Of a DNA stretch of 64,000 nucleotides, positions 23,243 through 27,096 are shown one piece after another. Source of the stretch: Kiloniellaceae bacterium. Its GTDB lineage: Bacteria; Pseudomonadota; Alphaproteobacteria; Kiloniellales; J153. The DNA is taken from positions 1 to 64,000 of the forward strand of contig JAJFGN010000049.1 of assembly GCA_021776115.1 (NCBI GenBank), written 5' to 3'. Made by a program: the position numbers and the translations under genes. The notes below the pieces were generated by a model. That model was not told where the DNA came from. It did not search any database and was given only the letters and a program-made list of their open reading frames with translations. The stretch's first letter is position 1; each line of letters begins with the position of its first letter.

Positions 23243-24319
23243 ATGCGCAAGGGTTTTGATGTGACCACGTGGCCGTCCGCGGCTTTCGGCCGGTCAACGA
23301 AGCTACTGGGAATTCTGTCGGTGTCGGCACCCTTGATTTTGACCCTTGCCGGTCCGGTCCATGCCGTCGACGGGGTCATCGAGATCAACCAGGCGCGGGC
23401 CCTGGCGGGTAGCGTCACGCCGGGCGACCTACCGGGCTTTCCCGTGACCATCAGCCAACCCGGCAGCTATCGCCTGACGGGTAACCTGGTCTTGACCTCC
23501 TTGACCGGCCCCGTATGCGGCCCGACAAGATTCGGTGGTTCCTCGGTTTGTGTCATCGATGTAGAGAGCGGCAACGTCTCGCTCGACTTAAACGGATTCG
23601 AGATTGTGTCGGGCGTGGGAGCCGTATTCGCTGGTGATGAACCAAACACAACCGTCATGAACGGCACTATCCGCAGTGGAGGGCAATTGGCCGTTCAAGT
23701 CGGCGCCGGTAGCCGCCTTGAGAGACTCCAAGTATTGACGTTCCTTTCAGGCGTTCCCGTGATCAGTGCTTTGGACGCCTGCATCATACGGGATAACGTT
23801 ATCGGGTCGTCACAAGCAACGCCATCGGCAGCCATAGAAGTAGACGGCGATGGCTGCACGATTACCGGCAATACAATAAGTGCCGTTAGTGTCAGCATCT
23901 CCGTGCAAGGTCGTGCAACGATCACTGACAACACCGTAAGCGGCGGTGTCGGCATAGCGTGTTCTGACGCATGCACAATAACCAACAACACAAGCACTAG
24001 AATAATCGCTGGCGATGGAAGCTCGATAATCAACAATAGCGTCAGGCGAGCGATTTTACGCGGCATAGCGTGTTCCGGCGCATGCACAATCACCAGCAAT
24101 ACGGTGACCAATCCATTCCCGGGATTTGAGGACACCGCCATTGAGGCCGAGGACGGGAGCCTGGTTCTCAGCAACACCGTGCGCGGCTACGACGTCGGCT
24201 TGGATCTCGGTAACTTCGTCGGTTATGCCGGCAATGTTCTGACCGAAAACACCACTACGGTCTCGGGCGGGATCGAGATCGGCACCAACCTGTGCGGCAC
24301 CAACACGATATGTCCCTAG
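23243..24319 (+). CDS. Secreted right-handed beta-helix repeat protein A
   Basis: A 358-residue exported protein. A hydrophobic signal (LLGILSVSAPLILTLAGPVHA) ends just before AVDGVIEINQARALAG. The conserved opening PGFPVTISQPGSYRLTGNL is followed by NVSLDLNGFEI and a series of short Ile/Asn/Thr turns (CTITGNTIS, ATITDNTVS, CTITNNTST, CTITSNTVT) typical of parallel beta-helix coils. It ends IEIGTNLCGTNTICP with two Cys. The next gene is a paralogue sharing both ends. There is no PEP-CTERM tail, so it is secreted or surface-associated by other means. The ribosome site GGAGGAGG is strong. An adhesin-like or polysaccharide-binding role is possible but unproven. Confidence 0.85.
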   Translation: MRKGFDVTTWPSAAFGRSTKLLGILSVSAPLILTLAGPVHAVDGVIEINQARALAGSVTPGDLPGFPVTISQPGSYRLTGNLVLTSLTGPVCGPTRFGGSSVCVIDVESGNVSLDLNGFEIVSGVGAVFAGDEPNTTVMNGTIRSGGQLAVQVGAGSRLERLQVLTFLSGVPVISALDACIIRDNVIGSSQATPSAAIEVDGDGCTITGNTISAVSVSISVQGRATITDNTVSGGVGIACSDACTITNNTSTRIIAGDGSSIINNSVRRAILRGIACSGACTITSNTVTNPFPGFEDTAIEAEDGSLVLSNTVRGYDVGLDLGNFVGYAGNVLTENTTTVSGGIEIGTNLCGTNTICP

Positions 24320-24362
24320 GCGTTGGACAGCCGTCGTGCCGCCAAAGAAAGGAAAACAAGAG

Positions 24363-25304
24363 ATGCGCGTGAATCCGAGAGGGCTTCATCACGGGGCGCT
24401 GCTGCTGTGCGTAGTGGCACTGTTGGGTACCGCATCGTCTGCCTACGCCGTCGACGGGGTCATCGAAATCAACCAGACGCGAGCGAACGCCGGCAGTATT
24501 ACACCAGGCGATAATCCAGGCTTTCCGGTGACGATCAATCAACCCGGCAGCTATCGCCTCACGGGCAACCTGGTCGTCTCGGCGGCCGATGTAACCGAAC
24601 AGAATTGCGACCCGAGCGGCACCGCAGGCTGCGTCATCGATATCAACAGCAGTAATGTGTCGCTCGATTTGAATGGGTTCGAGATCGAAATGGTCGGACA
24701 AGCGGTGCGCGATGGCGTATTCGCATTCGACCGAGAAAATGTCGCCGTCGAGAATGGTGCGATCCGCGGCGCACAACGCAGCGGTATTTCGGTGGGGCCG
24801 AATAGTCGCATTGAGAAAATCCGCGGAACTAACAGCGCCATAGAAGAAGCAGGAAACATTATGGCCAAGGGAGGCTGCATAATTCGGGATAATTTACTGA
24901 CCGATGGTGACGGCGGGCAGAGCATCCTTGTTGTTGGCGACGGTTGCACGATCGAGGGCAATACCCTGACCGCCATCGGCGAGGTCGGCATATTCGTTCA
25001 GGGCGATGGCTGCACGATCACTGGGAATTCGATAGCCAACCATCTGATCGGGATTCAAGTTATCGGCGCCTGCACAATCTCGCACAACGCGGTCACGAAT
25101 GCCGGCGGTGTCGGCATTGATGCGGCCAACGGCAGCCTGATCCTGGCCAATAGCGTGCGAAACACAGGAAGTGCAAATGCCCTTCTGCTGGGCGATTTAG
25201 TCGGCTATGCCAGCAATGTTCTCACCGGGGGACAAGAGGTTCAGGTACAGGGCGGGATCGAGATCGGCACCAACCTGTGCGGGACGGACACGATCTGTCC
25301 TTAG
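24363..25304 (+). CDS. Secreted right-handed beta-helix repeat protein B (paralogue of A)
   Basis: A 313-residue exported protein with signal peptide (HGALLLCVVALLGTASSAYA, cleavage before VDGVIEINQ). The first 60 mature residues and the C-terminal IEIGTNLCGTDTICP are nearly the same as in the preceding protein, while the central coils (CIIRDNLL, CTIEGNTL, CTITGNSIA, CTISHNAVT) differ in number and sequence. This indicates tandem duplication followed by divergence of the helix. I start at the ATG at 24363 (AAGGAAAAC upstream) rather than the GTG 27 nt earlier. It is separated from protein A by 43 nt and is probably co-transcribed. Confidence 0.85.
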   Translation: MRVNPRGLHHGALLLCVVALLGTASSAYAVDGVIEINQTRANAGSITPGDNPGFPVTINQPGSYRLTGNLVVSAADVTEQNCDPSGTAGCVIDINSSNVSLDLNGFEIEMVGQAVRDGVFAFDRENVAVENGAIRGAQRSGISVGPNSRIEKIRGTNSAIEEAGNIMAKGGCIIRDNLLTDGDGGQSILVVGDGCTIEGNTLTAIGEVGIFVQGDGCTITGNSIANHLIGIQVIGACTISHNAVTNAGGVGIDAANGSLILANSVRNTGSANALLLGDLVGYASNVLTGGQEVQVQGGIEIGTNLCGTDTICP

Positions 25305-25367: not shown

Positions 25368-26363
25368 ATGCAGAACAAATCGAACGGGAGGCCAAGTGCG
25401 CAAAGAGGCTTTGCGGCAGCTGTGGCCACGATCGCGTTCCTGTGCTGGCCGGCGCCTTCTCTCTACGCGCAAACCATCCTCGGAAACGTGATTTTCTCAC
25501 CCGACGTGACAACGGTCTTTGCCGAGGAAACGGTGGACGACGAGCAAGTCGCCGACGATATCTTGAAGAATAACTTGAGCGTAGCCGTCTCATTGCGCGA
25601 CATCGGAAACATCCCGCAAGCGACGGACGTGAACGGGTACTTCCTTTTCTCTAACGACGACCTGCCGCAACGGCAACTTCTGTCGTTCGACACCACGGTC
25701 GAGTTGCCAGGCGGTCTGATCGCCGAGCCGCGCGACGTCGTCCTTTTCGACGGGACGGACTTCAGCCTGTTCTTCGATGGCTCCGTCGAGGGCATCCCCG
25801 ATGGTGCAATGGTGGATGCAGTGAGCTTGGTTGGGGCTCTGCTCTTTCTATCATTCGACACCACCGTGGCGCTGGACGGCTTGATAGTTGAAGACGAAGA
25901 CATCGTATTCTTCTCCACCGTGACGGGCGAATTCGGCGAGTTTTTCGTCGGGTCGGATGCAGGCGTGACCCCCGATCTGGACCTCGACGGCCTCCACCGG
26001 CTCGGCGGCCTGCTGTTTGTCTCCTTCGATGGCAGTGGCGAGATCGACGGGATTAGCTTCGATGACGACGATGTCCTCGAATTCGATCCAGGCATCGGCA
26101 GCTGGAAACTTGCCTACGATGGCTCTTCCCAACACGTCGGCTGGGCCGCTGCGGACCTCAACGCGCTCCACGTGAGAGCAGCCGGCGACCTGGATGGTGA
26201 TAACGATGTGGACCGGGGCGATTTGAACATCATCCTAGCCGCGTTGAATACGGATGCCACCGGGCCTGACGACCCTCGGGACCTGGACGGTGACGGCCGG
26301 ATAACGGTCTTGGATGCGCGGAAGCTAGTCCTGATGTGCGACCTGCCGCGATGCGCGAGTTGA
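25368..26363 (+). CDS. Secreted repeat protein with C-terminal dockerin-like calcium-binding domain
   Basis: A 331-residue exported protein. A signal peptide (AAAVATIAFLCWPAPSLYAQ) is followed by at least three related units of 50-65 residues, each with an LSFDTT/VSFDGS core, acidic Asp-rich turns and an FFDGS/AYDGS end (about 105-138, 160-196, 217-252; a fourth, weaker unit near 42-70). Residues 273-331 carry two EF-hand-like loops, DLDGDNDVDRGD and DLDGDGRITVLD, spaced as in type I dockerins, then MCDLPRC. Dockerins bind cohesins, and the next gene encodes a cohesin-like protein with a membrane-sorting tail. The function of the repeats is unknown; they may bind Ca2+ or act as a stalk. Confidence 0.8.
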   Translation: MQNKSNGRPSAQRGFAAAVATIAFLCWPAPSLYAQTILGNVIFSPDVTTVFAEETVDDEQVADDILKNNLSVAVSLRDIGNIPQATDVNGYFLFSNDDLPQRQLLSFDTTVELPGGLIAEPRDVVLFDGTDFSLFFDGSVEGIPDGAMVDAVSLVGALLFLSFDTTVALDGLIVEDEDIVFFSTVTGEFGEFFVGSDAGVTPDLDLDGLHRLGGLLFVSFDGSGEIDGISFDDDDVLEFDPGIGSWKLAYDGSSQHVGWAAADLNALHVRAAGDLDGDNDVDRGDLNIILAALNTDATGPDDPRDLDGDGRITVLDARKLVLMCDLPRCAS

Positions 26364-26413
26364 CGGAAGTGTGACTATCTTCATAGACCAAGAAGAAGAG
26401 CACGGAGGGACCA

Positions 26414-27037
26414 ATGAAAAGACTATCACTGATAGTTGCCATGATATGCGCCCTGGCGCTGCTACCCCAGCGCGCGTCGGCCGCTCTTATTGTTTCACTT
26501 GACCCCCAACCGCCGAAGATTCATGGGTTAGAGAACGTCTTTGTCGATATCAACATCTCCGGGCTCGACACGTTGCTCGGCGCATTCGATTTGGACTTCC
26601 TTTATGAGCCCAGTGTCTTTGTGCCTCTTTTGGTGCCGCCTGCAGGATTCGGGGATCACCTGGGAGACGTTTTCCTAGGCGAGGCTGTCGGTGGAATCGA
26701 TACCTCGACGCCGGGCGTCATAAATCTGTTTGAGATTTCCCTCCTGTTGGATTTCGAGCTCGATGCCTTGCAGCGGGATCCGGGTACAGGTGATCTGCTG
26801 GATAGCTTTACCCTGGCAACTGTGGGGCTTTTTCGGTTTGACTCCTCTACTGGCAGTCCCGCAACCACTTTGGTGGCAGACAATATTCTCCTGAGCGATG
26901 CCATTGGGAACCCGATTTTCCCGGTCGCGAATCCGACAGCCACCGTGCAGATCCCGGAGCCAGCCACGTTCTCCCTGTTCGTCCTTGGCCTCGCCGGGTT
27001 TGGCTTCCTCATGCGGCGGCGCGGTACGAAATCATAG
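26414..27037 (+). CDS. PEP-CTERM sorting domain protein with cohesin-like domain
   Basis: A 207-residue exported protein. It has an N-terminal signal (LIVAMICALALLPQRASA) and a C-terminal tail (residues 180-207) made of IPEPATFSL, a hydrophobic helix and MRRRG, the PEP-CTERM/exosortase sorting signal. Residues 24-150 (VFVDINISGLDTLLGAFDLD, FLYEPSVF, then FEISLL, LATVGLFRFD) follow the pattern of cohesin-like beta-sandwich domains. It follows the dockerin-like gene by 50 nt and precedes a strong terminator. GGAGGGACC lies before the ATG. No exosortase gene is in the window, so processing would depend on one encoded elsewhere. The cohesin call is from pattern only. Confidence 0.85.
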   Translation: MKRLSLIVAMICALALLPQRASAALIVSLDPQPPKIHGLENVFVDINISGLDTLLGAFDLDFLYEPSVFVPLLVPPAGFGDHLGDVFLGEAVGGIDTSTPGVINLFEISLLLDFELDALQRDPGTGDLLDSFTLATVGLFRFDSSTGSPATTLVADNILLSDAIGNPIFPVANPTATVQIPEPATFSLFVLGLAGFGFLMRRRGTKS

Positions 27038-27070: not shown

Positions 27071-27096
27071 CGAGGCCAGGTAGGCCTCGTTTTTCT
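27071..27096 (+). terminator. Rho-independent terminator closing the surface-protein island
   Basis: A perfect 7-bp stem CGAGGCC/GGCCTCG with a 5-nt loop is followed immediately by TTTTT. It is 34 nt after the PEP-CTERM stop codon and ends the plus-strand transcript. Confidence 0.88.

Follow-up and report, generated by a model that had tools for sequence, protein, structure and literature searches.

Two adjacent genes, P0001 and P0002, lie on the plus strand of the window (the whole 64,000-nucleotide stretch that was analyzed), exactly where the initial annotation had placed them. The features that concern us here are as follows.

25368..26363, plus strand: P0001, a 331-aa secreted protein with a signal-type N-terminal segment (by eye), repeats, and a C-terminal dockerin
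25678..26180, plus strand: repeat region of P0001, with copies starting at 25678, 25846, and 26017
26181..26360, plus strand: dockerin domain of P0001, with two Ca2+-type loops and a C-terminal Cys pair
Codons at 26337 and 26352, plus strand: the Cys pair of P0001, C-terminal to the dockerin loops
26414..27037, plus strand: P0002, a 207-aa secreted single-cohesin protein with a PEP-CTERM tail (N-terminal signal by eye only)
26948..27022, plus strand: PEP-CTERM sorting tail of P0002 (residues 179-203)
27071..27089, plus strand: terminator-like stem-loop followed by a T run, 3′ of P0002 (consensus match only)

Both open reading frames are intact, and the genes are spaced 53 bp apart, the P0001 stop codon included. 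The scan for terminator-like sites gave 12, where 4.4 would be expected. P0003 and P0004 (window positions 23243-24319 and 24336-25304) encode secreted proteins in tandem that share 44% identity. A right-handed beta-helix was matched by the second of them, and the two have similar short C-terminal tails that contain Cys. These genes had been proposed as part of the same system, a proposal that we have abandoned, as the 15 other dockerin-locus stretches examined showed no homologue of P0003 or P0004 nearby.

Domains of P0001 and P0002

Ahead of its C-terminal domain, P0001 contains three Asp-rich repeat copies that are recognizable in the DNA and spaced by 168 and 171 bp (ca. 56 to 57 aa), where three or four had been suggested. 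These repeats, for which a Pfam search gave no family, would be the cargo part of the protein. The two EF-hand-like loops with which the gene was said to end are indeed present; each is a 12-residue EF-hand-type loop, the first at residues 274-285 (DLDGDNDVDRGD, 26187-26222) and the second at residues 305-316 (DLDGDGRITVLD, 26280-26315).

The description of this domain as a type I dockerin needs to be divided: the dockerin assignment stood, and the type did not. PF00404 matched whole P0001 at 17.9 bits (E = 0.0037) and the dockerin domain by itself at 22.4 bits, in both cases just below the curated cut-off of 22.9, which is exceeded by 6 of the 13 other dockerin-bearing proteins tested; in the host genome, P0001 is the single match to this model at E ≤ 1. 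In an alignment of 15 dockerins, 14 of which match PF00404 at E ≤ 1, the acidic loop positions are invariant or nearly so, and a Cys pair C-terminal to loop 2 (C56 and C61, alignment numbering) is invariant and would presumably form a disulfide. An AlphaFold2 model of the P0001 dockerin (pLDDT 85.8) was closest by VIA-align to 2y3n_B (Z 8.9, rmsd 1.9 over 56 residues), the type II dockerin of a Bacteroides cellulosolvens entry, with the NagH dockerin 2ozn_B second by Z (7.7). In a Foldseek search with the same model, the top 28 rows were cohesin-dockerin entries or dockerins; no row reached E ≤ 0.001, which is not surprising for a model of 63 residues. Judged from the model, then, the P0001 dockerin looks nearer to type II than to type I, and this agrees with the cohesin profile described below, which also favors ScaB-type and B. 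cellulosolvens cohesins. A candidate second dockerin at the end of the window (14.1 bits) was rejected as a half-domain match in a frame that is otherwise unsupported.

The cohesin assignment of P0002 likewise held in part. P0002 by itself gave no match to PF00963 up to E = 10 (HMMER, filters on) and none to other cohesin models, and an AlphaFold2 model built on a three-row alignment was too poor for use in judging the nine-stranded jelly-roll fold of cohesins (pLDDT 45.9). We therefore give the evidence for its family, an alignment of 12 members comprising P0002 and 11 linked relatives. When the profile of this family was run against all PDB sequences, 22 matched at E < 0.05 and all 22 are cohesins; the best was 3l8q, ScaB of a cellulosome (E = 1e-18), and four were NagJ constructs. 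PF00963 matches 6 of the 12 members at E ≤ 1, at best 4.4e-5. With tails removed and each member left out in turn, all 12 exceeded their own shuffles (the weakest by 18.1 to 10.4 bits), and P0002 reached 63.3 bits, against 9.0 for the top of 200 shuffles. By these comparisons P0002 is a cohesin, confirmed only through its family.

The PEP-CTERM tail reported for P0002 is clear: it exceeds the cut-offs of both PF07589 (28.5 bits; cut-off 20.7) and TIGR02595 (21.6 bits; cut-off 16), and the protein has what defines a PEP-CTERM substrate, namely, a signal peptide (by eye) and a C-terminal motif followed by a hydrophobic helix and a basic end. Nine PEP-CTERM loci in the host genome exceed the cut-off, and among these P0002 stands alone: it reached 67.2 bits with the tail-less cohesin profile, and the next locus 1.7.

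Recurrence of the gene pair and its cargo

Relatives of both genes were found in two of the nine genomes of the host family, the host itself and a second Kiloniellaceae MAG (G006). In the latter (L031), a 1,211-aa protein with a C-terminal dockerin, unrelated to P0001 outside the tail, is followed after 33 bp by the gene for a 198-aa cohesin-like PEP-CTERM protein. A contig scan with the dockerin, which was not a census, gave at least five loci (L029 to L033), among them this one and a Competibacteraceae contig (L030) on which the end of a dockerin gene precedes a cohesin-family PEP-CTERM protein. Because the contig end cuts its dockerin, we left L030 out of the dockerin alignment and out of the gap and correlation counts below.

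We then surveyed the phylum with a profile of five dockerin tails, scoring at most 15 candidates in each of 398 genomes, so that the resulting figures (at least 12 dockerin loci in at least 11 genomes, host included) are lower bounds. Neighboring frames were scored after removal of the signal and sorting tail, against profiles built without the member from the locus in question. At 9 of the 11 nonhost loci, an adjacent cohesin-family gene lies on the same strand, downstream of the dockerin gene at eight and upstream at one; at each of the nine it was the best frame (21.8 to 69.8 bits), the next best reaching 4.6 bits at most. Including the two linked pairs outside this survey (G006 and L030), a cohesin neighbor was found at 12 of all 17 dockerin loci read (the host, L029 to L033, and the 11 survey loci), and the intergenic gaps in the 11 pairs measured are 13 to 119 bp, all on the same strand. 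The recurrence of the linked pair elsewhere shows that its pairing in the host is nonrandom. A class-wide survey with a single dockerin sequence recovered the host only (1 of 385 genomes), so the pair is either uncommon in the class or too divergent to be recovered with a single-sequence query, and tblastn of a plasmid collection with the dockerin domain gave no match.

At the remaining loci the picture is varied. L029 lies on a contig that ends 126 bp past the dockerin match; L032 has no cohesin neighbor; and L033, from Phycisphaerales, has no cohesin nearby and was left out of the dockerin family because its dockerin is without the Cys pair. At L072, no PEP-CTERM cohesin neighbor was found by running the tail-less profile over the frames; an upstream frame scored 6.9 bits and was left uncounted because its sequence has no PEP-CTERM tail. 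At L065 (3899-6472, genome G679), the gene after that of the dockerin-tailed protein encodes a PEP-CTERM protein outside the P0002 cohesin family, which was rejected as a cohesin (17.4 bits with the tail-including profile and 0.1 bits with the tail-less one) and is possibly a different dockerin partner.

Two further loci may be described here. One genome (G500) has two dockerin genes, for a nuclease (L067) and a collagenase (L073), each beside its own cohesin gene, and these two pairs constitute a natural specificity test. At L063:4669-7234 (genome G478), the cohesin closest to P0002 (48% identical) precedes its dockerin gene, which encodes a GDSL lipase. Across the 11 measured pairs, dockerin distances correlate with cohesin distances (r = 0.50, permutation p = 2.5e-4; within one family, seven pairs, r = 0.50, exact p = 0.013), although this is weak support, since shared descent of both genes could yield the same result.

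What the dockerins are attached to differs widely. Six loci (L066, L067, and L069 to L072) encode endonuclease/exonuclease/phosphatase domains, in most cases together with a lamin-tail domain; L069 and L072 have endonuclease I as well. The lipase and the collagenase have been mentioned; PKD domains occur at L064 and, with a weak Big_1 match, at L031, and L032 has a purple-acid-phosphatase N-terminal domain with a nuclease-type domain. Pfam gave no domain at L065 and the dockerin only at L068. By resemblance, the nuclease cargoes are of the ExeM type. According to the accessible part of the source, Shewanella ExeM bears a GlyGly-CTERM tail of its own (PMC6085458), and this suggests that the dockerin may substitute for a sorting tail. 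The same portion of that source, however, describes ExeM as staying in the membrane fraction after its putative anchor was deleted (PMC6085458), which calls for caution toward simple anchor logic.

Sorting, a proposed tether, and competing explanations

The initial annotation had set the absence of an exosortase beforehand as a result that would count against it, and no match to PF09721 or TIGR02602 was found in the host assembly (85 contigs, 98.7% complete, not closed). Two exosortase-A-system genes are nevertheless present on host contig C29, one for a glycosyltransferase (TIGR03087; L039:16978-18195; 450 bits, cut-off 316.65) and one for an O-glycosylation ligase (TIGR03097; L040:1843-3186; 481.3 bits, cut-off 188.1). 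All three congeners of the host have PF09721 over the cut-off, and the exosortase typed in one of them (G007) is XrtD (604 bits; cut-off 400). The left flank of the G007 exosortase site aligns to C29 and the right flank to the C29 end, with different genes in between. No exosortase was present in the intervening host stretches; the right-flank homology is only partial, so that loss at this site is not proven. In the phylum survey, PF09721 exceeds its cut-off in all 10 other dockerin genomes, against a base rate of 81 of 398 in the same draw (one-sided Fisher p = 7e-7, with the host entered as lacking), a test that, like the distance correlations above, is phylogenetically nonindependent because 8 of these 10 genomes belong to one family.

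The recurrence of the pair, the family cohesin profile, and the dockerin model give good support to the core of the initial annotation, an anchored cohesin-dockerin pair. We consider it likely that P0001 and P0002 form a private, one-to-one cohesin-dockerin tether, probably Ca2+ dependent, in which the cohesin is the exosortase-sorted partner. Both proteins would be exported. With its one cohesin and its PEP-CTERM tail, P0002 should be delivered by an exosortase to the surface of the cell or the matrix of that surface. The P0001 dockerin would fold with two bound Ca2+ ions and plug into this cohesin, so that P0001 would need no sorting tail itself to stay at the surface. Elsewhere, the equivalent two-gene cassette would hold nucleases, a GDSL lipase, or a collagenase. 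As far as sequence allows us to judge, the finding is real and extends further than the initial annotation had it, to a predicted cassette, private and portable, in which a cohesin-dockerin pair has an exosortase-type anchor.

One alternative, which we regard as rather unlikely but the most serious of those considered, is that the tail is cleaved and the P0001-P0002 complex released to the extracellular matrix, where it would serve in biofilm or floc building and not as a surface scaffold. Our analyses do not tell where PEP-CTERM proteins go once cleaved, and one NCBIfam PEP-CTERM family is named as flocculation associated (PepA), although the P0002 tail reaches only 19 bits with this model, well below its cut-off of 80. 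Arguing against matrix release, the enzymes carried elsewhere (nucleases, lipase, and collagenase) would gain from nearness to the cell.

It is less probable still that the pair is a relic in the host strain, the exosortase having been lost and the sorting of P0002 having ceased. The lack of an exosortase match in the host and its presence in three of three congeners are what such a loss would leave behind, but the assembly is not closed, the nine PEP-CTERM tails and the two exosortase-A-system genes persist over their cut-offs, and neither open reading frame has decayed. Least probable, in our opinion, is that the dockerin-like tail only serves P0001 as a Ca2+-stabilized cap and that P0002 is a separate PEP-CTERM surface protein, the two sharing a process without binding: EF-hand pairs are common as Ca2+ sites, the dockerin family profile also matches PDB calmodulins (at weak E-values), binding of P0001 to P0002 is itself a prediction from sequence, and L065 and L072 have the tail without an adjoining P0002-family cohesin, yet whatever the cargo, the neighbor belongs to the cohesin family, a known dockerin partner, G500 has one cohesin for each dockerin, and the two domains covary.

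The tether between P0001 and P0002 may exemplify a broader arrangement, which we put forward more tentatively, at somewhat less than an even chance. This would be a portable Gram-negative trans-anchoring cassette, in which a disulfide-capped, type II-like dockerin can be placed on any secreted enzyme and an adjacent single cohesin carries the exosortase tail. The attachment would be reversible and Ca2+ dependent, replacing the covalent or membrane-linked tails (e.g., GlyGly-CTERM) of relatives of those enzymes.

A kit with such varied cargoes points to a little-noticed means of retaining secreted proteins at the cell surface. Cohesins and dockerins exist outside cellulosomes, where their function is mostly open; the present cassette is small and cloneable and provides one-to-one pairs with defined cargo in exosortase bacteria, so that the function of noncellulosomal cohesins and dockerins becomes directly testable. 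If the proposal is true, a PEP-CTERM tail can sort another protein in trans, and lists of exosortase-dependent surface proteins that are based on tails only would then be incomplete. Another possible use of the pairs is as new orthogonal protein couplers.

Relation to known systems

Among the papers searched, none linked a cohesin or dockerin with PEP-CTERM, although an earlier mention is possible in Peer et al. 2009, reportedly a review of noncellulosomal cohesins and dockerins. The closest structural relatives come from the type II anchoring of cellulosomes (ScaB 3l8q/1qzn; B. cellulosolvens 2y3n): the top cohesin sequence matches are ScaB type, the top dockerin fold is 2y3n_B, and, by analogy, a surface-fixed cohesin would take up a dockerin in both cases. 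However, there is one cohesin and one dockerin here and no multicohesin scaffoldin was seen, there is no cellulase cargo, the host is Gram negative, the anchor is an exosortase-type tail and not SLH or LPXTG, and an extra Cys pair lies behind the dockerin. With one dockerin in the host genome (at E ≤ 1) and a single cohesin-sized body in P0002, the locus falls outside what defines a cellulosome, a multicohesin scaffoldin together with several dockerin enzymes.

A second comparison is with the noncellulosomal NagJ/NagH cohesin-dockerin pair of Clostridium perfringens (2ozn). Both halves find a match, NagJ among the PDB matches of the cohesin profile and NagH through its dockerin (Z 7.7). The two systems differ in that the NagJ cohesin is a module of an enzyme, while the cohesin of P0002 accounts for the entire mature part of a small PEP-CTERM protein whose gene adjoins that of its dockerin.

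Noncellulosomal cohesins and dockerins, partly in adjacent genes, have also been described in the sulfate reducers and ANME archaea of methane consortia, where, in the portions of these papers available to us, they are thought to act at the surface and are described as adhesins (PMC10553843, PMC9012536). Those portions contain no pairing with PEP-CTERM or exosortase, and the ANME proteins, unlike P0002, include multicohesin forms; a search for exosortase together with cohesin or dockerin returned the ANME review only, which treats the two subjects apart in the text available. Unpaired dockerin-like and cohesin-like modules appear in the Saccharophagus genome paper, which, in the part accessible, leaves their binding open (PMC2386152).

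Finally, P0002 resembles the substrates of PEP-CTERM/exosortase and GlyGly-CTERM/rhombosortase sorting, as set out in the available sections of PMC3237569, in that it bears a PEP-CTERM tail. It differs in what the tail would serve: no sorting tail was seen on P0001-type cargo, and a separate cohesin protein carries one instead, so that sorting would act in trans.
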